Below, piece by piece: positions 41,484 through 64,000 of a stretch of 64,000 nt of DNA. The notes beneath the pieces were generated by a model that searched no databases, was not told the origin of the DNA, and saw nothing but the letters and a program-made list of their open reading frames with translations. This stretch comes from Haloferax sp. Atlit-12N. Lineage in GTDB: Archaea > Halobacteriota > Halobacteria > Halobacteriales > Haloferacaceae. The translations under genes and the position numbers were made by a program. Positions within the stretch are counted from its first letter, which is position 1. Every line of letters begins with the position of its first letter. The DNA lies in assembly GCF_003383095.1 (NCBI RefSeq), contig NZ_PSYW01000002.1, positions 1,116,001 to 1,180,000 on the forward strand, in the 5' to 3' direction.

Positions 41484-41556
41484 GGGCCCGTAGCTCAGTG
41501 GACAGAGTGCTTGGTTCCGGACCAAGATGTCGCGGGTTCAAATCCCGTCGGGTCCG
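41484..41556 (+). tRNA. tRNA-Arg (anticodon CCG)
   Basis: A 73-nt cloverleaf. The acceptor arm GGGCCCG (41484-41490) pairs with CGGGTCC (41549-41555), discriminator G at 41556. The anticodon stem CTTGG/CCAAG encloses the loop TTCCGGA, anticodon CCG, reading the Arg codon CGG. The T-arm has the standard TTCAAAT loop. No intron is evident. The CCA end is not encoded. The gene lies at the junction between GC-rich core genome and the AT-richer region to its right, typical of an integration target. Confidence 0.97.
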
Positions 41557-48533: not shown

Positions 48534-48560
48534 GTGTTTCGAGGCTGTTCAATCAACCAG

Positions 48561-49739
48561 ATGAGACATAGGCTCACAGAGAATCAACGAGAGACAATCT
48601 TTGAGTGGAGTGAATGCAGTAACACGAGGCGAAAAGAAGCGGTTCGCGAAAGTCTCACAAAGAGTTTAGCGGAGGTACTATATTTGAGAAACCTTCCTCC
48701 AGAGGAGTCACGTGAGATTGTCAACCGTGCTCTGAATTCAGAGATTGCAGAGTCAGCCAATCACAGACCAGACGCCGCGACGAGGCCAGACCGAAGAGCG
48801 TTGATCAGACTTCAAACGATTCTATTTTCTGCAGTCTCAGAAAAAACATTCAGCAGGTCGGTTAATAGGGGTGTTATTGATTCACTACGTTGGCATATCA
48901 AGAAGGGTCAAAATTCCGAAGGTGCAGAAGACATTTTCGACCGAATAGAAGAGGAGAAGGGTGCCCCTGCTGACGAAGACTTACGCATTGCTAAGGCAAT
49001 AGCGACTCTCAAAGGGATTCCGAATGAAAAAGTAGAGAGTCCGGATGGTGAGTCATGGCAACCATTTCCAAACAGACCACCGAAATCTATCAAAGAATGG
49101 TGGTATGAGCTCGCGCGTTTGAAAAGACGGTTTGCAATAGTTCGGTACATGAGGTCGGATACTCGTTCAAAGGAAGAGTTAGAGAAGTCAAGAGATGAAA
49201 TTCGTAGAGCAAATCAGATTTCTTTAATGACAGACATATACAAGGAATTTGATCCTCAACGGATGAAATCTACTGACGAAAATAGGTGGAGTGGGGACGA
49301 AGAGATCGCTAAGTGGAGTGAGAACGAGAAGGTCGCTAGAGACCTCGTACGCGAAGGTCGAAAACGAGCCAAGATGATTTGTTTCCAAATGAACAACCCC
49401 CAAAACATATCAAACTCAGTCATTGACCCCATAGAGAAATATAATCGTCATTGGATTGAACTACATTGGGATTACTTAAAAGGGAATCTCGAAGAACGAA
49501 GTGTGGACTGGACTCCTGATCCGCTTCCAGAGTATTACCCAGAACCAGATGAAGTTCGGGATCCCTCAAAGCTCCGGTTGAAAAACTGGTGGACACGTCA
49601 GAAGATTACTGTACGAGAATCACATGGAATCGAGGAGCTGAAATATCCCTACTCTGAGGTAGCAGAAAAACAAGCCAATGCAAAAGAAGAACCAGTCGAA
49701 TATAATTGGGATTCGGTTGACGAAACGAGGACCGACTGA
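48561..49739 (+). CDS. Element-encoded protein of unknown function
   Basis: A 392-residue, highly charged and predominantly helical protein rich in Arg, Glu and Trp. It has no recognisable motif, cysteine cluster or membrane segment. The AT-rich codon use marks it as foreign. It starts at the ATG at 48561, 28 bases after the TATA box, so a short leader is expected. It lies between the two tyrosine recombinase genes and converges on the second. Its charge pattern would suit a DNA-associated protein, but this is only a guess. Confidence 0.68.
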   Translation: MRHRLTENQRETIFEWSECSNTRRKEAVRESLTKSLAEVLYLRNLPPEESREIVNRALNSEIAESANHRPDAATRPDRRALIRLQTILFSAVSEKTFSRSVNRGVIDSLRWHIKKGQNSEGAEDIFDRIEEEKGAPADEDLRIAKAIATLKGIPNEKVESPDGESWQPFPNRPPKSIKEWWYELARLKRRFAIVRYMRSDTRSKEELEKSRDEIRRANQISLMTDIYKEFDPQRMKSTDENRWSGDEEIAKWSENEKVARDLVREGRKRAKMICFQMNNPQNISNSVIDPIEKYNRHWIELHWDYLKGNLEERSVDWTPDPLPEYYPEPDEVRDPSKLRLKNWWTRQKITVRESHGIEELKYPYSEVAEKQANAKEEPVEYNWDSVDETRTD

Positions 49740-50993: not shown

Positions 50994-51368
50994 ATGCCAG
51001 AAAAACATCCCGAAATCACAGACCCAAATGAATTCGAAGGCGACACGGAGATTGACCCAGAGCTGGAGTTCCGTTCGAAATTCGTAGAAGCACTTGCCTA
51101 CAACGGCTTTCCAGACACGCTCGTCTTGGGGCGTAACCGAGCAGGAGATGTGTTCCACGAGCGGCGCATCAAGATAATAGACTACCTCAAGATACACAGA
51201 CCTCAGTCGGTTCGGCAGCTCGCCGCAGAATTGGAGATCGACAAAGGAGTCGTCAGCCGTGATCTACAGAAACTCGCTCAGTTAGATGTCGTGGAATTTG
51301 AAACAGATGGACAAAATAAAGCACCACGTCTGAAGCATAAACACGTCGTCGTAGAGCCGGTGATCTAG
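50994..51368 (+). CDS. HTH transcription regulator (HVO_A0114-like)
   Basis: A 124-residue DNA-binding protein. The C-terminal winged helix (VRQLAAELEIDKGVVSRDLQ, about residues 75-94) resembles HTH proteins I recall as the HVO_A0114 family. TATA-like GTATATTTC is at 50958-50966, giving a start near the ATG at 50994. It lies at the border between the recombinase genes and the defence-like genes and shares its stop bases with the convergent gene at 51365. It may regulate the ATPase operon that follows. Confidence 0.75.
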   Translation: MPEKHPEITDPNEFEGDTEIDPELEFRSKFVEALAYNGFPDTLVLGRNRAGDVFHERRIKIIDYLKIHRPQSVRQLAAELEIDKGVVSRDLQKLAQLDVVEFETDGQNKAPRLKHKHVVVEPVI

Positions 51369-51715
51369 GACAGTCGTGCTACGAAGTCTTCGACCATCTC
51401 GATTGCCTCTTCTAAATCCGCTGTAGAAGAGACGTAATCAGAAGAAATCGTCTCTGTGAACCCAGGGCGGTGGTAGTCTGGTCCCGCAGTCTCTAACCCT
51501 TGTACCGTCCACCCGTCGTGGAGTTCGAGACTGACGACACGAACGGGGACATCGGTTCCGACAAGGTCAACGTTCGAAACGTCCCAGTCGAACTCTTCTT
51601 GGTCTAACGGGCGAGTCCACTGGTGAGTTCGTGGGTCAAGCTTTTCGTACGTCCATTCACGACCGTTCGATTTGAGGGCGTGTGATGGAATCGAATCCTC
51701 GTCGTATTCAGTCAT
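51365..51715 (-). CDS. Hypothetical protein convergent with the HTH gene
   Basis: A 116-residue acidic protein with no recognised motif. A beta-rich middle (VPVRVVSLELHDGWTVQGLE) is followed by a helical end (DLEEAIEMVEDFVARLS). Its 3' end overlaps the HTH gene by four bases. Small HTH genes with convergent or adjacent partners sometimes form toxin-antitoxin pairs, but I could not recognise a toxin fold here. Confidence 0.65.
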   Translation of the reverse strand: MTEYDEDSIPSHALKSNGREWTYEKLDPRTHQWTRPLDQEEFDWDVSNVDLVGTDVPVRVVSLELHDGWTVQGLETAGPDYHRPGFTETISSDYVSSTADLEEAIEMVEDFVARLS

Positions 51716-51817: not shown

Positions 51818-51825
51818 TTTTTATA
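51818..51825 (+). promoter_or_regulatory. TATA box of the GHKL ATPase operon
   Basis: TTTTTATA (51818-51825) lies 35 bases before the ATG at 51860. It places the start of transcription at about 51849, downstream of the in-frame TTG at 51827 and thereby excluding it. The leader would be about ten bases. Confidence 0.55.
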
Positions 51826-51859
51826 ATTGGCTGTCCCACGTGAGAGTCAGAAACAATAT

Positions 51860-53803
51860 ATGCGATCTGACTCAGCCCGTCCCGAGGGCTGGTGGTTCAA
51901 AGAGCAACCACCAGGACAGTCACACAGTCCGGGGCTCCTCCAGAAGAAGACGCTGGATAGAAGTCTCGATACCTTCGTGAAGGAGATTCTCCAGAATATC
52001 AACGACGCCGGGCTCGAGAACGAGCACCCTGTCGAAGTTACGTTCAGACTCGTAGAGCTCCAAGACCCTCGAGACGTGTTCGAGGAGGCGATCGGTTGGG
52101 ATTCCCTACTAAAACACGTACGTGCAGCGGCTCAGGAACAAAGCAGTCCTGGCCTCAAAGAGTACCTCGACTATCTGGACAGTGGGGGAAAACTGCGAAT
52201 TCTCGTCGCAGAAGAGAGGAACACGAGCGGGATACAAGGAGACGAGGTTTCTACCGATTGTGACTATGCGGCATTAGTCCGCGACCCCGGAAGTAGTAAC
52301 AAGACTGGAGATACAGGTGGGAGACACGGTCTCGGAAGTTCCGTCTTGTGGGTTGCCAGCGGGCTACAGACAGTCGTATTCAACTCTACCTTGGCCGAAG
52401 AATTAGACGACCAGGATTCACCGCGCCTAGTAGGTCGTTCGTTCGTTCCGACGCACCAAACACCAGGTGGTCAGTGGTACGACAACGAAGGTTGGTTCGG
52501 ATCACCGACTGGCCTGAGCAATCCGGACTTGGAGCGTCCAGAGTCGATGTGGTCGAACGTGGCAGAAGACCTCGCCCAAGAGTTGTCGCTGGAGAGACCG
52601 GACGTACCCGGGACGAGTACGATGATCGTCGGGTTCCGCGACCCGTCAGATCCCTCAATGGAGGAACAACCATCGCCGTCAGAGGTCGCGGATATCTTCG
52701 AGCAGACTGCAGCGGACTACTTTTGGCCTGCTATCAGTCGTGGTGACCTCGAAGTGTACTTGGACATGGCAGGCGACGAAAGAGAGATCACCGACGACAC
52801 GATCCGAGACCACGATGGTGTTGCCCCTTTCATCGATTGCTACGAGAGACGCGACGGTGCGCCAGATTCACTAGGCGGGCCTGGTGAGGTTGCCAGTAGA
52901 GAGTTCGACTACGAAATAAGGAGTCGAAAAGACCGTAAGACACCAGAGAGTGGTCCGGTGTCACTCGCTGCACGGAAGGCGTATCCCGACGAGGAAGAAC
53001 GTGTTGGTGAGATCGCTTTCTTCCGAGGGTCGGGGATGGTGGTCAAGTACAAGCCTGCACGACATCTCGGTTTCTCGGAGAAGTTCCACGGTGTTCTCGC
53101 CTGTGGCAACGCACGAACCCAGCCGGGGCGGACGCCAACACGAGAAGACAGAGCTATAGACGAGTTCTTGGCGATGGCAGAGCCTCCAGCGCACGACGAC
53201 TGGGTTGGGAAGAAAAACGACGAGCTCAAGGGAACTTTCGAGCCGGGGTGTGTCAAGCGTGTTCGAAAACTGAAGAGGGACTTACTGAAGAAGCACCTCT
53301 CGAAGTTGCTATACGGCACCCAAGAACGCTCTGGAGACTCGATTCGCCCCGACAGGGACATCTTGCCGAAGACGCGTCGGTCTGGAGGCAGGAGTAACGG
53401 CGTCTCGACGCCGAACGTTTCGAGTCCTTTCGATTGGAGAGTGACAGAATCGGAAGTCGACAAGAACAGGTGGACGTTCGTAGGGTGGATAGAGCCCGAC
53501 CTGGATGTCGAAGGCGAAATCAGACAGTGGGAGGTCGAGATCGAAATCGCGGCCATGTTCGAGGACGATCGAGAAGCTTCCAAGATTCCAGTCGAAGAGG
53601 TCGAAGTCACAGGAAGCCACGTCGGTCGGAGACTTGACGACGGTAGAGGGGTGATAGAGGTGAAGGACGACACGGGGAAAATAGAATTCGATATACGATC
53701 TGAATCTCTTGCTGACGCCGATCCGAGGTTGGGCGACCTCGGTGAGACCAAGTTCAAGATCGTCGACGGGTCTATCAGCATCGAGGAGGTGGCATCTTCG
53801 TGA
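51860..53803 (+). CDS. GHKL-type ATPase (A), first gene of a coupled three-gene operon
   Basis: A 647-residue protein. Its N-terminal Bergerat-type ATPase has an N box EILQNINDA (Glu42, Asn46, Asp49), a G1-like VAEERNTSGIQG (about 116-127) and a G2-like GDTGGRHGLG (150-159) before SSVLW. The rest includes a conserved FRGSGMVVKYKP segment and AEPPAHDDW (about 440), also seen in the homologue at 62216, and a beta-rich C-terminus. It is related to MutL/MORC/Hsp90-type folds in general but is not MORC. It is coupled by GTGA overlap to the next gene. Probable role: ATP-driven clamp or sensor in an unknown defence system. Confidence 0.78.
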   Translation: MRSDSARPEGWWFKEQPPGQSHSPGLLQKKTLDRSLDTFVKEILQNINDAGLENEHPVEVTFRLVELQDPRDVFEEAIGWDSLLKHVRAAAQEQSSPGLKEYLDYLDSGGKLRILVAEERNTSGIQGDEVSTDCDYAALVRDPGSSNKTGDTGGRHGLGSSVLWVASGLQTVVFNSTLAEELDDQDSPRLVGRSFVPTHQTPGGQWYDNEGWFGSPTGLSNPDLERPESMWSNVAEDLAQELSLERPDVPGTSTMIVGFRDPSDPSMEEQPSPSEVADIFEQTAADYFWPAISRGDLEVYLDMAGDEREITDDTIRDHDGVAPFIDCYERRDGAPDSLGGPGEVASREFDYEIRSRKDRKTPESGPVSLAARKAYPDEEERVGEIAFFRGSGMVVKYKPARHLGFSEKFHGVLACGNARTQPGRTPTREDRAIDEFLAMAEPPAHDDWVGKKNDELKGTFEPGCVKRVRKLKRDLLKKHLSKLLYGTQERSGDSIRPDRDILPKTRRSGGRSNGVSTPNVSSPFDWRVTESEVDKNRWTFVGWIEPDLDVEGEIRQWEVEIEIAAMFEDDREASKIPVEEVEVTGSHVGRRLDDGRGVIEVKDDTGKIEFDIRSESLADADPRLGDLGETKFKIVDGSISIEEVASS

Positions 53804-54810
53804 AGCAAATTCAACTGAACAAGGGGCTGTCTTATCGAACGTACCCCCACCGCTGTGAACCTGGTTCACTCGAATTTTCGGTGACGGAGTATTCAATCAA
53901 CGGCAAGTCGTCGAGCGAACCAGATGTCGATCAGCTCGTCGACATCAAAGAGTACGAGGGCTGGGATACACTCACCTTAGAGATCGAAGTGACGATTCCA
54001 GAGGGCCTACTGGGGAAGGTCTTCCCGGAGTTCGGAAAGATACCGGGAATGCTCGTCGTCACCGCTCACTGTCGGGAGACGTATCTCCGTGAACGGTTTG
54101 TACTGGCTCGGGACCCGATAAGTTCGGGGACGTACGAAGGAACGTGGGAGTTCGATTCAAAAGACGTCAAGGGGAGCGTTGACCTCCGCCCGATTCTGAT
54201 ACGTACGACCGATACGTCGCAGTCGATGAACTACGCGACGGACGCGGGTGTCTTCGTCGCTGATGGCCCAGAGTGGCGGATAGATATCAGCGACACGAGT
54301 AGGGAAGACCAAGGCCTCCTAGACGTCCGATCTAAATCGTTCGAAGAGGTCCACGAGGCAGACGACGATACTCGCTTCCCATCCTCGGACCGGTTCTATT
54401 ATCTGGACCTGGAAGGCGATCCTGATGTGCCAGTGCTGTGGCTCAACGAAGACCACGAGAAAGTGACCACAGTGATTCAGGACGCCGAGAGTGAACACGA
54501 GAAGGTAGTCTCAGACCTCGTTTGGAATCAAGTCATGACACCAGTTTGGACTCGTCTCGTCACGGTCGCTGCGACCGAGTACGATCCTGACGAAGACGAT
54601 TGGGCACCAGAGTGGCAGGGAGCTGTCTTCGACGAACTCCACGACGAGCTCTATCCTGATCACACACCAGAGAAGACCGCCGAACGACTACAGGAGGACC
54701 TCTCGGAGTCTGTGGTACTCGCGACGAAGAAGATAGAAGGCGCTGTACAGGAGCTCCTAGAGCCAGCCGACTACTATACGAAACACATCCAGAACTTGGC
54801 GGAAAGATGA
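53800..54810 (+). CDS. Operon partner (B) of unknown function
   Basis: A 336-residue soluble acidic protein. The first 170 residues look all-beta (LSYRTYPHRCEPGSLEFSV; LTLEIEVTIPEGLLGKVF). The remainder is mostly helical (KVVSDLVWNQVMTPVWTRLV). DPDVPVLWLNEDHEKV at about residues 208-223 is the most motif-like stretch. No known domain was recognised. It starts with GTG overlapping the ATPase gene by four bases and ends with ATGA overlap to the next. The tight coupling on both sides indicates one complex or one pathway with the ATPase. Confidence 0.75.
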   Translation: MKQIQLNKGLSYRTYPHRCEPGSLEFSVTEYSINGKSSSEPDVDQLVDIKEYEGWDTLTLEIEVTIPEGLLGKVFPEFGKIPGMLVVTAHCRETYLRERFVLARDPISSGTYEGTWEFDSKDVKGSVDLRPILIRTTDTSQSMNYATDAGVFVADGPEWRIDISDTSREDQGLLDVRSKSFEEVHEADDDTRFPSSDRFYYLDLEGDPDVPVLWLNEDHEKVTTVIQDAESEHEKVVSDLVWNQVMTPVWTRLVTVAATEYDPDEDDWAPEWQGAVFDELHDELYPDHTPEKTAERLQEDLSESVVLATKKIEGAVQELLEPADYYTKHIQNLAER

Positions 54811-55526
54811 CACAGACGACCTTGGCCCGGTTGAAGACCGATGCAAAGCGACTATTGGACGACGAGGAATTCCTGAGGGGTGACAAAGAGTTCTTCGAAG
54901 AAGGAAGGCTCGAGAGATATACACAGACGACGAACTTCAGTGCGGACATCGACGCTTTAGAGGACCGTCTGAGAGAGATCGTAGACGAGTATCCACAGTT
55001 CGAAGGAGAGATGGATTCCGAGGCAGCAGTCGCCGTCCACGAGGAGATCGATTTGAGTCGTAGTGAAGCGAGTGACTCGAGAATCTGGAACGATCTCGCG
55101 ATGCGTCACTTCCCGTGGTTCGTCCGCCACAGGTGGAGATACGAGAGTCAGACGGGGATGAAGAAGAAGTTCTGGACCTACGGTTCTGCTCTCGACTCGG
55201 CCTCCAGTACCTTCGAACGGTTGTGGTGGATTGCCGAGATGACCCAAGAGGACGGCGACTACGAGAACACCAAGAAGGCATTCGAGAGCCGACGGTTCTG
55301 TTTCCGTGTGTTCGACATCCAGCTCGGCCGGTACAAACCAGCGGCGCTTGCGTGTCTCGAAGTACTCTACGACGAAGACGAAGAGTCGTTCGCAGCAAAC
55401 GACGTGATAGACGAGACGATACAGAGGCTCCGCCGTGCCGGCACCACGATACCATTCGAAGGGCGGACGAAATCAGAGTTAGTAGATGTCGTTCAGAGTA
55501 TTCGAGAAGACGTCGAGTCAGGGTGA
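54807..55526 (+). CDS. DUF6339-like protein (C), third gene of the operon
   Basis: A 239-residue helical protein. The segment WNDLAMRHFPWFVRHRWRYE followed by KKFWTYGSALDSASSTFERL and WWIAEMTQ (about residues 93-150) matches what I remember of DUF6339 (W..LA....P.YVR.RW). DUF6339 proteins occur near ATP-binding proteins of accessory regions in bacteria, but their function is unknown. The ATG overlaps gene B. The Trp/Arg-rich core could bind nucleic acid. It is followed by 165 bases before the convergent methylase gene. Confidence 0.75.
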   Translation: MTQTTLARLKTDAKRLLDDEEFLRGDKEFFEEGRLERYTQTTNFSADIDALEDRLREIVDEYPQFEGEMDSEAAVAVHEEIDLSRSEASDSRIWNDLAMRHFPWFVRHRWRYESQTGMKKKFWTYGSALDSASSTFERLWWIAEMTQEDGDYENTKKAFESRRFCFRVFDIQLGRYKPAALACLEVLYDEDEESFAANDVIDETIQRLRRAGTTIPFEGRTKSELVDVVQSIREDVESG

Positions 55527-55691: not shown

Positions 55692-56789
55692 TCAGTCGAC
55701 GTAGTCACCTAACGCCGCCTGTTTCTTCTCCCCCCGTAGGTGTTCCAACAGGCGCCGTCCAATGATCTCACCGAGTGCGGGAGGTACTGCGTTTCCGATC
55801 ATCCGACCAAGTTTTGTAATACCGATATCTTCGAATTTTTCGGCGAACTCGTAGTCACGAGGGAACGTTTGAATCATCGCACCCTCCCGTAGCGAGATGG
55901 CCCGGTTCTGGTCTGTATCGTAGTGTCCAAATCTACCACTTCCCAAATTGTAGAACTGTGTCGTGATAGTGGGTGCTGGCTCGTCGGGTCGCATCCGGCC
56001 GTATACGGAACCGAACGAACGTCCACTCTCGTCGAGGTGGCAGTCGAGTAGTAGCTCCTCGTCCCAGTCTTCCCAGGTACCCCCAGGAACAGATTGTTCG
56101 ATTCGTCTGAGGTTGATGTCGTCGAGTGACCGAGCAGTGTGAAGCCAGTCTTCGGGATGGGAATCACCAGCTTCGATTGCAGGAAGGTCGTCGATTCGCT
56201 CCTTGACAGACTCAAACTGACTTGGTCGGTTGTGAATTCTGGGGGAGAAGTTGAACGGACCCCGCTTCGACGCGGTTACCACCCATCGCCGGCGTGTCTG
56301 CGGGATACCGTACTCTGGACAGAATACCCGCTTGTTCCAATCTGGGTTCAACAGGTAGCCCATCGATTCCAGCAGCTCTTCGAAGTCTTCGTACACCACT
56401 TCGTGGCGAAGTTCGTAGACGTTCTCCATCACCACGAAATCTGGTTCGATCGCGGCGACGATCTCACCGAACTCGGAGAGCATCTCGTACATCTCGTGGT
56501 CTTCGCTCTCGGAGCCGTGGTTAAGTGATGAGAAAGGCTGGCAGGGAGGACACCCAGCGACAAGTGTCGCATCGGCATCATCGTCCAACCACTCAGCTAT
56601 TTTTTTGGGGTTCTCCTTCGAGATTTCGGCTAAGTCAGCGGGTACGAAGTTGGCCTCGTTGTTTTCATTGTAGGCGTACCGACAATCCGCGTCAATATCG
56701 AAACCGGCCTCCACCGTTACACCTGCAGTCTCAAGGCCGTTCGTGAGACCTCCGGCACCACAGAACAGGTCAACGGCGGATACGTTCAT
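55692..56789 (-). CDS. C5-cytosine DNA methyltransferase (copy 1)
   Basis: A 365-residue DNA (cytosine-5) methyltransferase. Motif I DLFCGAGG (SAM binding, about residues 7-14), motif IV with the nucleophile Cys83 (GCPPCQPFS), motif VI ENV (122-124), motif VIII QTRRRWV and motif X GNAVPPALG are all present. It should be active. Its target-recognition region is very like that of the methylase at 59178-60230 (shared GGTWxDWD and ESGRSFxSVYGRM). The ATG at 56789 is 9 bases after the expected transcription start given the TATA box at 56820. Confidence 0.93.
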   Translation of the reverse strand: MNVSAVDLFCGAGGLTNGLETAGVTVEAGFDIDADCRYAYNENNEANFVPADLAEISKENPKKIAEWLDDDADATLVAGCPPCQPFSSLNHGSESEDHEMYEMLSEFGEIVAAIEPDFVVMENVYELRHEVVYEDFEELLESMGYLLNPDWNKRVFCPEYGIPQTRRRWVVTASKRGPFNFSPRIHNRPSQFESVKERIDDLPAIEAGDSHPEDWLHTARSLDDINLRRIEQSVPGGTWEDWDEELLLDCHLDESGRSFGSVYGRMRPDEPAPTITTQFYNLGSGRFGHYDTDQNRAISLREGAMIQTFPRDYEFAEKFEDIGITKLGRMIGNAVPPALGEIIGRRLLEHLRGEKKQAALGDYVD

Positions 56790-56819
56790 GTTGCTATTGG
56801 ATGGAAGTTCGACGGAACA

Positions 56820-56829
56820 GATAAAGCGT
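56820..56829 (-). promoter_or_regulatory. TATA box of methyltransferase copy 1
   Basis: On the minus strand CGCTTTATCTG contains a TTTATC-type TATA element whose +27 position falls at about 56798, just before the ATG at 56789. It shows that this methylase has its own promoter rather than being the last gene of the MORC operon. Confidence 0.45.
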
Positions 56830-56898
56830 TCGTCTCCGGATATCGACACACGAGGGGTCGGTTGACGAGTCCGATTTCAGTATTGGCCTGTGTCGAAA

Positions 56899-57121
56899 TC
56901 ACAAAGAGACAAAGACCTGTGAGTTGCTTCTAGAGACGTACTGTATGAGAAACTCGGGGGGCACCAGACGACAGTCTTGGCAGGGCTCTATTGAGGAAGA
57001 ACTCAGCGACAAAGACTCCGTAGAGAGAGGCTTCGGGGTCACACCACGGATATCGACGAACGTTGTCTTCACTCCATTCGAGGATCTCGACACGGAACTG
57101 TTCGGCGTGTAGTTCGTCCAC
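56899..57121 (-). pseudogene. Remnant of an HhH-GPD DNA glycosylase (Mig-like)
   Basis: The first 45 codons from the ATG at 57121 (FRVEILEWSEDNVRRYPWC and SLYGVFVAEFFLNR) match the N-terminus of MutY/Nth-type HhH-GPD glycosylases. The reading frame then shifts near 56985, and the next frame gives VPPEFLIQYVS, which continues the alignment (typical EFLxRYPS). The rest of the protein, including the catalytic Asp and Fe-S cysteines, is missing. In methylase operons this family repairs T:G mismatches from deaminated 5-methylcytosine. The similarity is recalled, not computed. Confidence 0.5.
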
Positions 57122-57175: not shown

Positions 57176-59188
57176 TCAGTCGAACACGTCTCCGTCGTCA
57201 ATCTGGTCGAGGAGCCTCGAGACACGGCCATTCCGGGAGTCGTTCGAAGTTCGGGACTGGTATACTCGGGACGTCTCTCTCAGGAGGTCTTCGTACTTCT
57301 TGACGACGACTCCTCGTTTCTTCAGGAGACCTTCCAACTCACTCCACGTCTCGGTGTCGGGGACCACGAAGACGACGTCTGCGAACTGAGTATCGTACCC
57401 CTCTTCTTCGAGTCCGTGTTCGAGAGCATCCTCGAACGTATCGACCAAATCGTGGAGCCCAGAGTTCGCGGGTTCGGTCGGGTGACGGAGCGCGACCAAC
57501 GTGTACCCAGACGCTGCGCGAACACACCGAATACTCGACTCGTCGACGTCGTCTCCGTCGAAGTGACCTGCTTCGGATAGGTAATTCTCGACCGTCTTCT
57601 GCAACTCCTCGTCAACCGGTGACTGTTCCCAGGCAGGGTTCAGCAACCACGGGTGCTCTCTCAAGTGCACGAACGTCTTGTCGTCTACGCCCTTCTCTTC
57701 GACTCGGCATAAGAACGCGTCTACGACTTCCTTCCGATGAGAGACCATCTGCTGGTGCTGAGAGGACTCTACGTCGTCTAAATCAGAGAGTGTGCGAGAG
57801 ATCGTCCGTCCGTCGGCCTCGGTCAAGTCGCCGATACTGTCGATCTTCTCTTGGTACTTCAGATTCTCGAAGGCCAAGATGCCGTACTTGAAGAGTTCTC
57901 TCCGGTCAGACTCGTCTTTCACCGACATCCGGCTAATCTTCCCCAAGAGACTCTGAGCCCGCTCACGCTGTTCTGGTGCGAGACTCTCGTACCACATGTC
58001 GACGATTCCAATTTGACGTGCTTCTCTGGAGGCCTGCTGGTTACGCAGGTCGTTCCACTTCCCGGCGATGTGGCTCAATTGGATGCGGAGGAAGTCAAGG
58101 AGTTCCTGATATCGTGGATCTTCCTTGACGACGTCCTCACGATTCGAAGTCGCGATATCTTCCTGGTCGTCGTAATCAAGAAAGTCGGCGTGGATCTCAC
58201 CGACGAGGTATTTGGAGAACATTCGACTGTCGTTCACACTCTCCAAGAGGTCTGGCTTGGCCATCCGCCCTCGGACCATCAAAGAGATCTTGTTCAGGTC
58301 GTCGGCTTCGGTGTCGTGGCCCGGATAGTCCTCAACTAAGTCACTCGGTTTCTCTACGGTTCCGATCCATCCGGACACCTTGTATCCGTCAGGGGTCTTA
58401 CCCTCTCGTTCCTCGTGGGCTTCAAGCTTGGAATCACGACAGAGATCTCGATAGTGGTGGTCTTCGAACGTCCACAGGAACTGAACTTTGTGGAAGTAGT
58501 CGCGATCCGTCGCAGTAACCTCTTCGCCGTTGATCCTCACGGTGAAGTCGTACTCGGTCCCGAGAATACTGAACCGTCGTGCGAGCCGTTTCCGAAGTGC
58601 GTGTTCGGTGGTGTGAACCCGCTTCGTGAGGTCGGTGAGGACGATCTTCGTCCCTTCGGTGAATTCGTCCGGGAAGTCGTCTAGTGGTGTCGGGACGTAC
58701 TGTTGCTGTTGGACTCCAGAAGATGACTCTTCTTCACCGATGGCTCGCTGGATCTCGCTCAGTTGCATCCTGAAGCCATTATGATCGCCATCTTTGGCCG
58801 TGTACACGTCAACAGTCTCGGCTACGGACAGGAGGGAGAGTTTCCCGATGCCCTTGCGACCCATCACAGGCCGGTCGTGTATCGGTGTGCGGTTCGAGCG
58901 TTCGTCATCTCGGCGTCTTCGATATCCGACACGGAGGTACCGCTCGTTCACGTCTTCGGCGTCCATCCCCTGCCCGTCGTCAACGATCACGATCTTCTCT
59001 TCGTCGGGGTAGATGTCCACGTCAACGTTCTCGGCGTCGGCGTCCCACGCGTTAGCGACTGCTTCAGACAGTACTGCAGGAACGTTGCTATAAAGGTTCA
59101 GCCCTAGGTGGTTCAACACGTTGAGGCTGAGAGACATCTTGTACGGGGAATCACTCTCCGACTCTGTAGATTCTGGCTCAAGCTGCGA
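57176..59188 (-). CDS. MORC/MutL-like GHKL ATPase of a restriction-type operon
   Basis: A 670-residue protein. The N-terminal GHKL ATPase is textbook: N box EAVANAWDAD (Glu43, Asn47, Asp50), G1 DDGQGMD (71-77) and G2 GRKGIGK (111-117). An S5-like transducer follows with KGxxxxITDLT-type GTKIVLTDL (about 184-192). The remaining part has no nuclease motif I recognise. Prokaryotic MORC-type ATPases coded beside C5-methylases have been described in restriction-modification operons (Iyer, Abhiman and Aravind, 2008). The start overlaps the preceding methylase gene by 11 bases. Predicted function: ATP-dependent DNA clamp. Confidence 0.87.
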   Translation of the reverse strand, partial: SQLEPESTESESDSPYKMSLSLNVLNHLGLNLYSNVPAVLSEAVANAWDADAENVDVDIYPDEEKIVIVDDGQGMDAEDVNERYLRVGYRRRRDDERSNRTPIHDRPVMGRKGIGKLSLLSVAETVDVYTAKDGDHNGFRMQLSEIQRAIGEEESSSGVQQQQYVPTPLDDFPDEFTEGTKIVLTDLTKRVHTTEHALRKRLARRFSILGTEYDFTVRINGEEVTATDRDYFHKVQFLWTFEDHHYRDLCRDSKLEAHEEREGKTPDGYKVSGWIGTVEKPSDLVEDYPGHDTEADDLNKISLMVRGRMAKPDLLESVNDSRMFSKYLVGEIHADFLDYDDQEDIATSNREDVVKEDPRYQELLDFLRIQLSHIAGKWNDLRNQQASREARQIGIVDMWYESLAPEQRERAQSLLGKISRMSVKDESDRRELFKYGILAFENLKYQEKIDSIGDLTEADGRTISRTLSDLDDVESSQHQQMVSHRKEVVDAFLCRVEEKGVDDKTFVHLREHPWLLNPAWEQSPVDEELQKTVENYLSEAGHFDGDDVDESSIRCVRAASGYTLVALRHPTEPANSGLHDLVDTFEDALEHGLEEEGYDTQFADVVFVVPDTETWSELEGLLKKRGVVVKKYEDLLRETSRVYQSRTSNDSRNGRVSRLLDQIDDGDVFD

Positions 59189-60230
59189 CATCGTGTTCCT
59201 CCATGTGGTCAACGATACTCCGACCGATTACCTCGCCGAGGCGGACTGGTACCGCGTTCCCGACCATCTTCCCGATCGTCTTGAACTCTACGTCGCCTCC
59301 TTCTTCGACGAAGGCGTAATCCTCGGGGAACGTCTGGAGCATCGCTCCTTCTCTGAGCGAGATGGCACGATCCTGCTCAGGATGCCCGAATCGACCGCTA
59401 CCGTAGTTGTAGTACTGTGTCGTCATCGTCGGAGCAGGCGCGTCCCACTCCATCCGCCCGTATACAGAGTCGAAAGAGCGGCCACTCTCTTTTCGATGGC
59501 AATCGAGCCTGATATCGGGGTCCCAGTCTCTCCACGTCCCACCGGGTAGTGACTGTCCGATCCGCTCTAGGTTCTGCTCTTCCAGTGTACGGGATTTGTG
59601 TAAGTGGTCTTCGTTCGAATACTCTCCAGCTTCGATCGGTGGTAGGTTACCGATCACCTCGCGAACAGTGGGATAGTCGGCGGGGTCGTGGGTCGGGTCG
59701 ATCAAAGGGACGTCTCCGAGCTTCGAGGCTAGTAAGACGATCCGGTTACGGCGTTGTGGGATGCCATAGTCAGGGCAACTCACTTTGTCGAACCAGAGTT
59801 GGTACCCCTCTCTGAACAGCGTGTTCACGAAGTCCGAGTAGACCGGTTCGTTTCGGACCTCGGCGACGTTCTCCATCGTGACGATAGCAGGCTGTATATC
59901 CTCCACCAACTCCCCGAAGCTCTGGAGGAGACTGTACTCGGAGGTCTGCGACGTGTCCCGTCCATTGTTGAGATTAGAGAATGGCTGACAGGGTGCACAG
60001 CCAGCGAGTATCTTGGTAGAATCGTCGGGAAAGAGTGACTCGACGTCGGACGAGTCGATATCCGAGACGTCGGCCTTGACGAACTCGGCGTCGTTGTTCG
60101 CTTCGTAGGGGTACCTACAGTCGGGGTTTATCTCGACGCCGGCGGCGACGGGGATGCCAGCTTGCTCCAGCCCGTGAGTCAGTCCCCCGACACCACAGAA
60201 GAGATCGACTGCTGCGAGATTAGAACTCAT
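59178..60230 (-). CDS. C5-cytosine DNA methyltransferase (copy 2)
   Basis: A 350-residue DNA (cytosine-5) methyltransferase. Motif I DLFCGVGG (9-16), motif IV with Cys81 (GCAPCQPFS), motif VI ENV (120-122), VIII PQRRNRIV and X GNAVPVRLG are intact. It is a paralogue of copy 1 (55692-56789) with a nearly matching target-recognition region, so the two may methylate the same or a closely related sequence. It lies 47 bases after the DUF262 nuclease gene and overlaps the MORC ATPase gene, so the three form one operon. Confidence 0.93.
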   Translation of the reverse strand: MSSNLAAVDLFCGVGGLTHGLEQAGIPVAAGVEINPDCRYPYEANNDAEFVKADVSDIDSSDVESLFPDDSTKILAGCAPCQPFSNLNNGRDTSQTSEYSLLQSFGELVEDIQPAIVTMENVAEVRNEPVYSDFVNTLFREGYQLWFDKVSCPDYGIPQRRNRIVLLASKLGDVPLIDPTHDPADYPTVREVIGNLPPIEAGEYSNEDHLHKSRTLEEQNLERIGQSLPGGTWRDWDPDIRLDCHRKESGRSFDSVYGRMEWDAPAPTMTTQYYNYGSGRFGHPEQDRAISLREGAMLQTFPEDYAFVEEGGDVEFKTIGKMVGNAVPVRLGEVIGRSIVDHMEEHDVAA

Positions 60231-60277: not shown

Positions 60278-62071
60278 TTATACCACGTTCGTCTCGGTCT
60301 CGGCAGCCGAATCGATCCACAGTTCGAGACACTCGTCGATCAGATTCTCGTGTCTCTCTTTGAGTAGACTCGGCGTCCAACTGTCGAACTCGGACAACTC
60401 GTTCGTTATCGCGAAGTCGCTCTTCTTCTCGAAGTACTCTCTGTACTTTCTCGGGAACGGCCGGTTGCTCGCCTTGTAGTTCTTGCGCCCGTCCAAGAGG
60501 ACTAGATTTCCGAGACGGTTCGTCCACTTCTCGCGTTCCAACTCGTCACTGAAACGCTGGGTCCAATAACCACTACTCGGCTTCTGTGGGAGGATGTGCT
60601 CTACGTTGATGTTGTTCCCGTACTGGACCTTGACGTTCCGGTTGTCGTACCGCTCCAAGTTGAGACGCATCAAGATGTACTTCGGCCACTGGTAGTTCCC
60701 CTTCCGATAGAAGTTGCGTAGGTCCAACGATTCCTCGAAGTCCTCTTTCTCGGCTCGCAAGTCCCCTGTGAGATAGTCCGACCTCAAGACCTCCCGCGGA
60801 CCGTCGGCCGATTCTATGGCTTTGAGGATACTGTACACGCGTGAGTATCGGTCACTGCTCGACGAGCCGGTCAACCAGTCGACCGTGAGCCGACGTTCGA
60901 GGCGACAGACGAAGTCGTAGAGTAGGCCCTCGTCGTCGAACGTCTTGTCGAACTCTATCAACGCCACGACCCACTCGTCCGACGGGTAGAAGTCGCGCAT
61001 GACCGAGACCAGGTTGGCGTAGTAGACGTTCTTGTGTTCGTCGTCGGCGTCTAGTTTGGCGTCGTACACTCGCTTCCGATGGACGTCGAAGACTTGTTCG
61101 AGCTCGTCGACGAAGTCACGGCCGCGGTAGTCTGGCTTTTTCGTGAAGACTTCGCTAAATTCGTCGTAGATAGACTTCTGAGACTTGTTCTTGACGAGGA
61201 TGTGCCGCATGTACCCGATGAACCGTTCGAGCCCCTCGTTCCCGACCTCCTCTTCCATATCTTCCCACTTTCGCTGGTACTCGTCGCGGTGGGTCTCGGG
61301 GATCTGACTGAGGTTTTCGCTCTTCAGGAGGTCTGCGTTGTTGAGGGGCATCCCACGTGCGTTCGTGACGTTGAACAGACGGAACGCAGAGCTCAGTGAA
61401 TCCGTCATTATTCGGACCATCACGACTCGCTGCGGGATGAACGCCGCTAACGAGGTGAGGTCGTTCCCACGACTGGCCCACTGTTCGAGCCGTTCGTCGA
61501 AGGTAGAGACTGCCTGTAGAATGTTCTGCTGCGGTTCGGTGTCGCCGTTGGCTGGATCGGCAGGGTCAAGTGTCGCTTTGCGTTCCAGGACGTTCTCCTC
61601 GAAGAAAGCTTGGTCTCGGTCTCGGATACGGAGTCTAACGGAACCTTCCTGCCCCTTCGCGAAGTCCTCTTCTTCTTGGACGAAACGGTCGAGAGAAGTC
61701 GACCACCCTTCGTGATCAAGACGGTCCCTGAGGACACAGAGTAAGATTGCCACCGAAGTGAGTCGCTGCTGGCCGTCGATGACGTCAAAGCGGTCTCCAG
61801 TCGATCCGCCCCGGTTCAAGATGATACTCCCTAGGAAATACGGTTCGTAGGCCTTCGTTCGGGACTTGTCGAGTTTCTGGTCGCTATTCAATAAATCGCC
61901 GTGTGCCAGACTGTTCGATTCGTAGGCGTCGGTCAAGTCGTCAACGAGGTCTACGAAGTTCTCCTCCGTCCACGAGAATGGACGTTGGAACTTGGGAATC
62001 TGGTAGAGATAGTCCTCACCGTACAGTTTGTGGACGAATTCTTCTTCGGCATCGATCTGACTTCCGCTCAC
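60278..62071 (-). CDS. DUF262/DUF1524 HNH nuclease (GmrSD-like)
   Basis: A 597-residue protein. The N-terminal DUF262 domain has the ParB-like DGQQR motif (99-103), needed for nucleotide hydrolysis in this family. The C-terminal DUF1524 domain has HILPQ (about 492-496) and RLGNLVLLDGRKNYKASNRPF, the His-Asn HNH/beta-beta-alpha metal nuclease core. The single-chain two-domain layout is that of GmrSD/BrxU type IV enzymes, which cut modified phage DNA, and of SspE. It heads the operon with methylase copy 2 and the MORC ATPase. Its promoter is divergent from the second GHKL gene. Confidence 0.88.
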   Translation of the reverse strand: MSGSQIDAEEEFVHKLYGEDYLYQIPKFQRPFSWTEENFVDLVDDLTDAYESNSLAHGDLLNSDQKLDKSRTKAYEPYFLGSIILNRGGSTGDRFDVIDGQQRLTSVAILLCVLRDRLDHEGWSTSLDRFVQEEEDFAKGQEGSVRLRIRDRDQAFFEENVLERKATLDPADPANGDTEPQQNILQAVSTFDERLEQWASRGNDLTSLAAFIPQRVVMVRIMTDSLSSAFRLFNVTNARGMPLNNADLLKSENLSQIPETHRDEYQRKWEDMEEEVGNEGLERFIGYMRHILVKNKSQKSIYDEFSEVFTKKPDYRGRDFVDELEQVFDVHRKRVYDAKLDADDEHKNVYYANLVSVMRDFYPSDEWVVALIEFDKTFDDEGLLYDFVCRLERRLTVDWLTGSSSSDRYSRVYSILKAIESADGPREVLRSDYLTGDLRAEKEDFEESLDLRNFYRKGNYQWPKYILMRLNLERYDNRNVKVQYGNNINVEHILPQKPSSGYWTQRFSDELEREKWTNRLGNLVLLDGRKNYKASNRPFPRKYREYFEKKSDFAITNELSEFDSWTPSLLKERHENLIDECLELWIDSAAETETNVV

Positions 62072-62215: not shown

Positions 62216-64000
62216 GTGAATTTGGAGACATACTTCCACAAGCGTGAACAGGGAGAACGCAGGCTGGGCACTGCACTCACCGACATCGCGCTCGACCAAC
62301 GACTCGAACAGTTCGTCCGTGAAACAGCCCAAAATAGTGCTGACGAAGCCCAAGATGGGTTGACGCCCGAACTCCTCTACCGCTTCGATCAACTCGAAGG
62401 ATCTCGTCTCGACGAGTTCTTAGACGCAATTAACTGGGACACGAAGTTCCGAGATCACCTAGAGGCCGTCGCGGAAAACGACGACGAGATTGGTGTACAG
62501 AACATGGTCGACCGGATAGAGAAGGGTACACTTCCACTTCTGATGGTCGAAGACAAGAATACGACCGGGTTGACAGGGGACGAATTTTCTGACGACACTA
62601 ACTACGCGTCTCTGATTCAAGATTTTGGCCGATCTACGAAAGACGAATCAGAAGGCGGAGTTCACGGTGTCGGTGCGTCTGTACTGTGGGGTTTCTCCGG
62701 AATCAAGACTGCCATGTTTCTGACGACGCCTGAGGGATGGTCTGACACAGATGTACCACGATTCGTGGGCCGAATCGATCTGCCATTCCACGAATACGGA
62801 GGGAAAGAATATCACGGAGACGGATGGATTGGTAATAGCGGCACTCAGGACCGCAGAGCAGTATCGATAGAGGGGCCTACTGCAGCAGACATAGCTGCGG
62901 ACGCCTTACACATAGACGAAAGTCGGGCTAGAGCTGATGCTACCGGGACCACGGCAATCGTCGTGGGATTCCGAGAGCCTAGTCGCAGCCGTCGCTCTCC
63001 CCAGAAGGTGATAGAGCGGATCGAAGATCTGGCAGTCATGTACTACTGGCCACTAATTCTCGAGGATGGTCTCGATATTTCTATCCAAGCACCCGACGAT
63101 AGCTCACCCTCGGCTATCGACCCAACAACGAACAAGGACCTGGAGGCGTTCATCGAAGCGTACCAACAGCGGGACTCGGCGAGTGAAACACTCGGTGCTG
63201 CACCTGACGTAGCCGCGATCAACATCCCACTGACAGTGCCCGCACACAAGGATGGAAAGTCGTCGACGGATGCAGAGGTCACTCTCGTAGTTCGAAGCCA
63301 CGAATCACGACCCAACAGCATGCCGAACCAGATTGCGTTGTTCCGTGGCGCGCGCCACGTGGTCAAATACCGGAAGTACGACCACATCGCCCGGTCCACT
63401 ACTCAGCACTTTCAGGCGATCCTCCTCGCAGGGAAAGCTCGACATCCGTTTGATGCTGACGACGACGATATTCCTGATTCGGATCTCGTGGTCGAGGACT
63501 TCTTCCGTAAGGCTGAGCCGAAAGCCCACGATACTTGGGAGAAAGAAGTCAGCAAACTGGAACATAACTATTCAGGGGGTAGCAGCGAGATCAATACACT
63601 GTTCAAAGACACTCTACCAGCACGGTTGACGGAGCTTCTCACCTCCGCCGGCTCCGACGACAGTGAAATGCTCGGGGACGTCGGACGGCGGTTCCCCTAC
63701 TTCTCAGGAGGACCGAACCGAGGTCGAAGCCGCGGTGGTGGGGGTGGTGGTAGTCGAACTATAGAACGTGTCAGATCCAACCTCAATCACATCGGTGACA
63801 AGTACCGTAGTACGGGGACTTTAGAGCTAACAGAGTCCTTGGAGGACGACTGGGGATTGACGGTGGAATTCGCTGTACTCGATTCTTCCAACAACGTAAT
63901 CGAGACCGTTGCGTTGGACAACATTTCCGGAACAGACCCTGAAACAGGCGCAAATTTGTCTGTGGAAAACAACGAGACAATGGTTCGAGTCCCCGGTGGA
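62216..64000 (+). CDS. Second GHKL-type ATPase (A'), partial at the window end
   Basis: An open frame of 595 codons without a stop, so the protein continues beyond 64000. It is homologous to the protein encoded at 51860: N box RETAQNSADE (Glu36, Asn40, Asp43), G1-like VEDKNTTGLTG (111-121), G2-like GGVHGVGASVLW, then FRGARHVVKYRK and AEPKAHDTW. It ends in a glycine-rich linker (GGGGGGS, about 500) before beta strands. The GTG at 62216 is chosen from TATA spacing. Gene A has no such glycine linker. Homologues of B and C would be expected to the right if this is a second operon. Confidence 0.82.
   Translation, partial: MNLETYFHKREQGERRLGTALTDIALDQRLEQFVRETAQNSADEAQDGLTPELLYRFDQLEGSRLDEFLDAINWDTKFRDHLEAVAENDDEIGVQNMVDRIEKGTLPLLMVEDKNTTGLTGDEFSDDTNYASLIQDFGRSTKDESEGGVHGVGASVLWGFSGIKTAMFLTTPEGWSDTDVPRFVGRIDLPFHEYGGKEYHGDGWIGNSGTQDRRAVSIEGPTAADIAADALHIDESRARADATGTTAIVVGFREPSRSRRSPQKVIERIEDLAVMYYWPLILEDGLDISIQAPDDSSPSAIDPTTNKDLEAFIEAYQQRDSASETLGAAPDVAAINIPLTVPAHKDGKSSTDAEVTLVVRSHESRPNSMPNQIALFRGARHVVKYRKYDHIARSTTQHFQAILLAGKARHPFDADDDDIPDSDLVVEDFFRKAEPKAHDTWEKEVSKLEHNYSGGSSEINTLFKDTLPARLTELLTSAGSDDSEMLGDVGRRFPYFSGGPNRGRSRGGGGGGSRTIERVRSNLNHIGDKYRSTGTLELTESLEDDWGLTVEFAVLDSSNNVIETVALDNISGTDPETGANLSVENNETMVRVPGG

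Follow-up and report, generated by a model that had tools for sequence, protein, structure and literature searches.

Doubled GHKL-ATPase gene trios of the defense candidate PDC-M33 beside cytosine methylases in haloarchaea

What kind of system is formed by three overlapping genes, one of them encoding a putative GHKL ATPase, in an island of the haloarchaeon Haloferax sp. Atlit-12N? The genes, called A, B, and C here, occupy positions 51860-55526 of a 64,000-nucleotide stretch of contig NZ_PSYW01000002.1 (positions 1,116,001 to 1,180,000; hereafter the window), within a haloarchaeal genome of 4.0 Mb, and the original prediction, made from the DNA letters and their translations, took them for an undescribed defense system. 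The three-gene system proved to be real, and it also proved to be catalogued already, as the unnamed PADLOC-DB candidate PDC-M33 A/B/C. The window thus contains a real and widespread defense candidate, which appears here as an archaeal variant obeying a clear two-trio rule, and it is likely that the trio is a defense system of the catalogued PDC-M33 kind.

Identity and distribution of the trio

The coupling of the three genes can be read directly. A1 (51860-53803, forward strand, 647 aa), B1 (53800-54810, forward, 336 aa, GTG start), and C1 (54807-55526, forward, 239 aa) have open reading frames that overlap by exactly 4 nucleotides each (GTGA between A and B, ATGA between B and C), as had been claimed, and the promoter said to precede them is represented by an archaeal TATA-like element, TTTATAAT, at 51820-51827 on the same strand, 33 nucleotides 5' of the ATG of A. 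The third gene, described as resembling DUF6339, indeed belongs to that family (PF19866, E = 6.9e-19), and the second, described as lacking any known domain, has no match in Pfam or NCBIfam; neither does A. With the models of PADLOC-DB 2.0.0, A is recognized as PDC-M33A (E = 3.4e-21) and C as PDC-M33C (E = 2.4e-13), and B goes unrecognized. All 44 relatives in our alignment of A match PDC-M33A, with E values reaching 1.5e-124. The trio can be equated with PDC-M33 because a trio on a Lactococcus plasmid matches all three models near full length (M33A 7e-162, M33B 4e-63, M33C 4e-47).

The B protein of the window has no match to the PDC-M33B model, and among 44 B relatives there is 1 weak match. 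Profiles built only from haloarchaeal B proteins match the B proteins of Myxococcota (3e-57), Gemmatimonadota (6e-35), Actinomycetota (2e-19), and Synechococcus (5e-18). In profile-profile comparison, haloarchaeal B reaches the Lactococcus-type M33B (E ~3e-5); through these links B is probably a single family, and the existing model captures one margin of it. A literature search with bioRxiv preprints outside its scope turned up no paper in which PDC-M33 or DUF6339 is named or tested, so PDC-M33 stays an unnamed candidate, and the literature on DUF6339, PDC-M33, paraMORC, and GHKL-plus-Vsr yielded no description of the A-B-C trio. A survey of archaeal immunity regards the PDC set as mostly unvalidated and does not mention PDC-M33 in its main text (PMC12988326).

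The genes recur together in unrelated genomes, which the original prediction had named as support for a system: B and C travel with A, near defense genes. Scanning one genome per prokaryote species returned 45 loci with A, in Halobacteria, Myxococcota, Planctomycetota, Actinomycetota, Chloroflexota, Gemmatimonadota, Verrucomicrobiota, and Bacillota, and plasmids add loci in Cyanobacteriota, Deinococcota, and Pseudomonadota, for about eleven phyla overall. B and C follow A at every locus where the contig is long enough (with the exception that B at one locus, L099, was recognized only through clustering with M33B-type proteins), and the order A-B-C is fixed in 68 complete trios. Across these trios the three proteins diverge together, their pairwise distances correlating at r = 0.95-0.99 (Mantel P = 5e-4, the lowest value that 2000 permutations allow). 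A few of the 68 represent one organism more than once, through near-identical or overlapping records, and independent trios are somewhat fewer. Judged from this sequence divergence, A, B, and C are inherited as one unit. Neighbors of the trio include DISARM, Shedu, Abi, and restriction-modification (R-M) genes, and a Pfam tally of 121 bacterial neighbors gave no further recurrent partner beyond those named here. On an Agrobacterium plasmid (L053:2487-8671), a very divergent trio lies directly 3' of a Z1-domain protein and joins a MORC-Z1-type neighborhood.

Doubled trios in haloarchaea

A second trio, missed by the original prediction, starts within the window. Its ATPase gene A2 encodes a second, distant PDC-M33A-type protein on the forward strand from 62216, where a GTG start is likely, to the window end at 64000 and beyond (stop at ~64120), and B2 and C2 follow outside the window, to ~65813 (L023:14216-17813). 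Both copies of A keep the catalytic motifs. Such doubling is usual among carriers of A in Halobacteria: 29 of 391 genomes carry A and 25 of these 29 have two or three copies (one of the three in G472 being a split gene), and DUF6339 is likewise present in two copies in 5 of 5 carriers. The trio copies are mostly spaced 3-12 kb apart. At bacterial loci, only single trios were seen.

The copies within a locus are not close relatives. Identity is 27-41% in 21 within-locus pairs, but of the pairs taken from different loci, 28% lie above 41% (permutation P = 1.5e-4). The tree contains five well-supported haloarchaeal clades, of which every multi-trio locus mixes different ones; the window pairs two. 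Since the copies are always distant relatives from different clades, the doubled trios represent an old combination and not recent duplicates. We did not find this doubled-trio rule described in the literature. In Haloterrigena sp. H1 (L069, on a contig shared with L060), a second cassette copy with A, B, and C each broken up among several frames adjoins an intact copy, through either decay or sequencing errors.

The ATPase and its partner proteins

The ATPase motifs quoted in the original prediction are real; their order, which it used to set the protein apart from MORC, MutL, and Hsp90, is the normal GHKL order of N box, G1, and G2. Invariant positions in the 44-member alignment of A comprise E42, Q45, N46, and D49 of the N box, G127 of G1, and G154, G157, and G159 of G2, together with R389, E441, H445, and W448. 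The N box is present in 44 of 44 relatives and the G1 and G2 boxes are conserved; the ExxxH motif formed by E441 and H445 is invariant by alignment and found in 40 of 44 by strict pattern. No Pfam GHKL model matched any of the 44 members. A profile of the A N-terminus aligns its N box with that of a set of MutL, TopoVI-B, and BbrUII-type proteins at E = 5e-4, compared with 0.17-0.47 for B and C as controls; this comparison needed a deeper GHKL set, hhalign of A with thin templates being too weak.

Membership of A in MORC itself was rejected: the MORC S5 motif GhXhhpXXRhl occurs in 0 of 44 A relatives. Iyer, Abhiman and Aravind (2008), in their passages on paraMORC2, describe a GHKL family in which an ExxxH is strongly conserved toward the end of the S5 domain and whose R-M neighborhoods hold DNA methylases, Vsr nucleases, and restriction-enzyme-fold proteins (PMC2292703). 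The motifs of A fit paraMORC2, with the S5 domain a putative feature, and the published ExxxH and neighborhood criteria would place A there.

For B, the AlphaFold2 model (predicted local distance difference test score, pLDDT, 90.4) contains a beta-sandwich at approximately residues 20-165, followed by a C-terminal domain of helices. The predicted sandwich is comparable to many immunoglobulin-like (Ig-like) domains, all with Z under 8 (Foldseek, VIA), and can be called only generically Ig-like. The C model is mostly helical (pLDDT 95.1, predicted template modeling score 0.91), and against the PDB its best Foldseek E value is 1.5 and its best Z 5.5 over 66 residues (VIA), which amounts to no match and does not thereby prove a new fold. 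No match emerged when sequences of the PDB were searched with profiles of the three proteins.

Linkage to cytosine methylation and mismatch repair

A C5-cytosine DNA methyltransferase accompanies the trios at 23 of 23 haloarchaeal loci examined, most of which also have an HhH-GPD mismatch-glycosylase-type protein. In the window, this methyltransferase lies 166 nucleotides from C at 55692-56849 on the reverse strand (PF00145, E = 4.6e-45; also matched by DrmMII/MTase_II models) and falls by tree into a trio-linked haloarchaeal clade; in a quick tree, the haloarchaeal linked methyltransferases form one clade (Shimodaira-Hasegawa-like approximate likelihood ratio test, SH-aLRT, 99), and those of Chloroflexota, Actinomycetota, and Verrucomicrobiota form a cross-phylum clade (SH-aLRT 100). 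A C5-methylase is present at 10 of 32 bacterial loci, eight of these 10 with Vsr and one with HhH-GPD. Compact operons occur in Gemmatimonadota (A-B-C-Vsr-methyltransferase, L094), Verrucomicrobiota (A-B-C-methyltransferase-Vsr, L097), and Synechococcus (A-B-C-methyltransferase with a 4-nucleotide overlap, L049). The linkage of haloarchaeal trios to a methylase, mostly together with a G:T-mismatch repair gene, was not found described in the literature. At the level of sequence, the three proteins form a conserved unit in which the GHKL motifs are intact; haloarchaea carry this unit doubled, and it is linked to methylation. Two families with no match in Pfam or PADLOC also recur beside haloarchaeal trios, one of ~260 aa (17 of 23 loci; L027:12225-13007 and relatives) and one of ~508 aa (11 of 23; L029:9858-11387 and relatives), and are possible extra partners.

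The combination of a GHKL ATPase with a C5-methyltransferase and either Vsr or HhH-GPD resembles Dcm-Vsr-MutL, and the trio might accordingly be read as a dedicated MutL-like helper for very-short-patch repair of 5-methylcytosine deamination beside the cytosine methylase, with no part in defense. In the window, the HhH-GPD gene is a remnant at 56984-57121 on the reverse strand, retaining the first 46 codons of 220 (tblastn, and blastn of L025 against L023; relatives belong to the HhH-GPD family) after a deletion of ~0.5 kb relative to the sister genome G002, where the gene is intact (L025:13912-14574), and yet both trios and the methylases are intact. This, the occurrence of trios without any methyltransferase, their patchy spread (the 29 of 391 Halobacteria), and the presence of two distant copies per locus all speak against a repair helper, which we consider very unlikely.

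Relation to DISARM

A second alternative is that haloarchaeal trios are accessory modules of DISARM that share its DrmMII-type methylase. Strong DrmA matches occur in 14 of the 29 Halobacteria genomes with trios versus 38 of 362 without (Fisher P = 1.7e-6), in each of the 14 on the trio contig and near the trio, an association not found described in the literature. DrmMII models are those that give the linked methyltransferase its highest scores. For the DrmA model PDLC02576, the ten best matches among the 391 Halobacteria all fall in trio genomes (G051, G566, G422, G593, G662, G635, G582, G135, G140, and G482), and by these ten matches a DISARM subtype travels with the trios. However, 15 of the 29 trio genomes are without strong DrmA, and DISARM genes are absent from the vicinity of most bacterial trios. 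The window genome is among the 15: DrmA was not found in it, the trio was rejected as a DISARM component there, and for the same reason the trio is not part of DISARM in general. We regard the accessory-module explanation as highly improbable, marginally more so than the repair helper.

The cassette and its surroundings

The two trios are part of a candidate haloarchaeal defense cassette of ~14.5 kb. Between them lie the methylase and the truncated HhH-GPD gene already described, a BbrUII-like enzyme with its own methylase, and GmrSD, all on the reverse strand. The enzyme at 57176-59212 belongs to the BbrUII/HgiDII family of restriction enzymes (NF050001, E = 5.5e-192), has its own GHKL domain, and forms a separate R-M unit with the second C5-cytosine methyltransferase (59178-60230), whose gene overlaps it and which is sister to methylases beside BbrUII-like enzymes in L026 and L052. 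GmrSD (60278-62071; DUF262 plus C-terminal domain; PF03235, E = 3.5e-36; PF07510, E = 3.2e-27) is type IV restriction-like. Since the BbrUII-like unit (57176-60230) is flanked on either side by a GHKL trio, ~12 kb of DNA encodes three different GHKL proteins.

The cassette has the same order in G002 and in G060, a genome of a different genus, with different upstream flanks. Its edge is marked by a 116-aa open reading frame without assigned function (51365-51715, reverse strand) that is also present in G002 (L025:8346-8696). Further upstream is a tRNA-Arg at 41484-41556, separated from trio 1 by two integrase-like genes. A 401-aa open reading frame with no family match (48534-49739, forward strand) lies between two integrase-like genes 5' of the trio. 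With the cytosine methylases, the BbrUII-like enzyme, and GmrSD, the setting is the tRNA-proximal island with methylases and a DUF262 protein that had been described.

Proposed mechanism and competing readings

Because two very different trio copies adjoin a DNA-methylating enzyme in haloarchaea, a methylation-linked defense machine is suggested. Our overall best reading, which we are about as ready to accept as to doubt, is that the trio would be the ATP-driven, non-methylating half of such a system; for a role as the restriction side of a methylation-based system, which is less secure than defense as such, doubt slightly outweighs belief. A defense role is made plausible by VcSduA (paraMORC3), a related GHKL protein that is antiphage by experiment (PMC12137116).

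In the proposed mechanism, the neighboring cytosine methyltransferase would mark host DNA, and the deamination damage that methylation brings would be repaired by the mismatch enzyme, which is HhH-GPD in archaea and Vsr in bacteria. A would dimerize via its GHKL domain upon ATP binding and close on DNA as a clamp, in the manner of MutL and topoisomerases. B, with its predicted Ig-like sandwich and helices, and the helical C may be the sensing or adaptor part, and the clamped complex would either block unmarked incoming DNA or recruit a nuclease to it. Two distant trios per cell probably widen the target range or form a two-ATPase assembly.

Several observations weigh against the trio as half of a methylation-linked system. 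In the Myxococcota loci examined, the trio stands alone, mostly among housekeeping genes. Of 14 genomes that lack a linked methylase, Myxococcota for the most part, 8 have no C5-methyltransferase anywhere, although most are metagenome-assembled genomes and incompleteness may account for some of the absences; these trios weaken the case for a strict dependence on methylation. The cassette contains a complete BbrUII-like R-M system, so its methylases may serve that system, and a nuclease is recognized in none of A, B, and C (for B and C, neither a nuclease fold nor a motif).

Part of the same evidence would suit a self-contained defense system, abortive or direct and independent of methylation, with methylases, DISARM, and R-M genes as ordinary island neighbors. 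Besides the Myxococcota, some Actinomycetota and Planctomycetota have stand-alone trios, and trios of Lactococcus, Agrobacterium, and Arthrobacter adjoin varied defense genes. Against such independence stand the methylase at every haloarchaeal locus examined, the compact operons in three bacterial phyla, and the methyltransferase clade that crosses phyla, and we hold it to be rather unlikely. The fullest version of the methylation-linked reading is more doubtful still: in haloarchaea, two GHKL-ATPase trios of ancient divergence would form an obligate pair and act as one machine, which would use cytosine methylation to distinguish self from non-self and would halt foreign DNA although it has no classical nuclease, by clamping or compacting DNA or by recruiting a shared nuclease such as that of DISARM, with C contributing a fold not yet seen experimentally.

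These results connect the unnamed candidate PDC-M33 to paraMORC2, a GHKL family predicted in 2008 for restriction systems, and extend it to archaea, whose B proteins escape the existing model. They also give two testable regularities, namely at least two distant trios per haloarchaeal locus and the company of a cytosine methylase and a G:T-mismatch repair enzyme. MORC-type ATPases silence DNA in eukaryotes, and if the trio does restrict unmethylated DNA without a nuclease, this would bear on a defense origin of these ATPases.

Comparison with known systems

Several known systems share features with the trio. The BbrUII/HgiDII enzymes also combine a GHKL domain with a cytosine methylase; they are single-protein restriction enzymes, and their likeness to A is confined to the ATP-binding motifs. 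VcSduA (a GHKL domain with a Shedu nuclease) is likewise a GHKL ATPase in antiphage defense, but it is a single protein with a fused PD-(D/E)xK nuclease, whereas the trio has separate B and C proteins and no recognized nuclease (PMC12137116). DISARM of the class with drmMII adjoins about half of the haloarchaeal trio loci, and the linked methylase resembles DrmMII; none of the three trio proteins belongs to DISARM, however, and the window genome is without DrmA. With paraMORC2, A has in common the GHKL motifs, the strongly conserved ExxxH, and the C5-methylase and Vsr neighbors, a comparison made with a published description whose passages on the family contain no mention of B-C partners, DUF6339, or tandem trios (PMC2292703). 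Closest of all is PDC-M33, which, with B joined through linked profiles, probably consists of the same three families in A-B-C order and whose models match A and C of the window. Its B model misses the B protein of the window and 43 of the 44 members of the B alignment, and the haloarchaeal loci differ from the catalogued form in having two or three distant trios together with a cytosine methylase.

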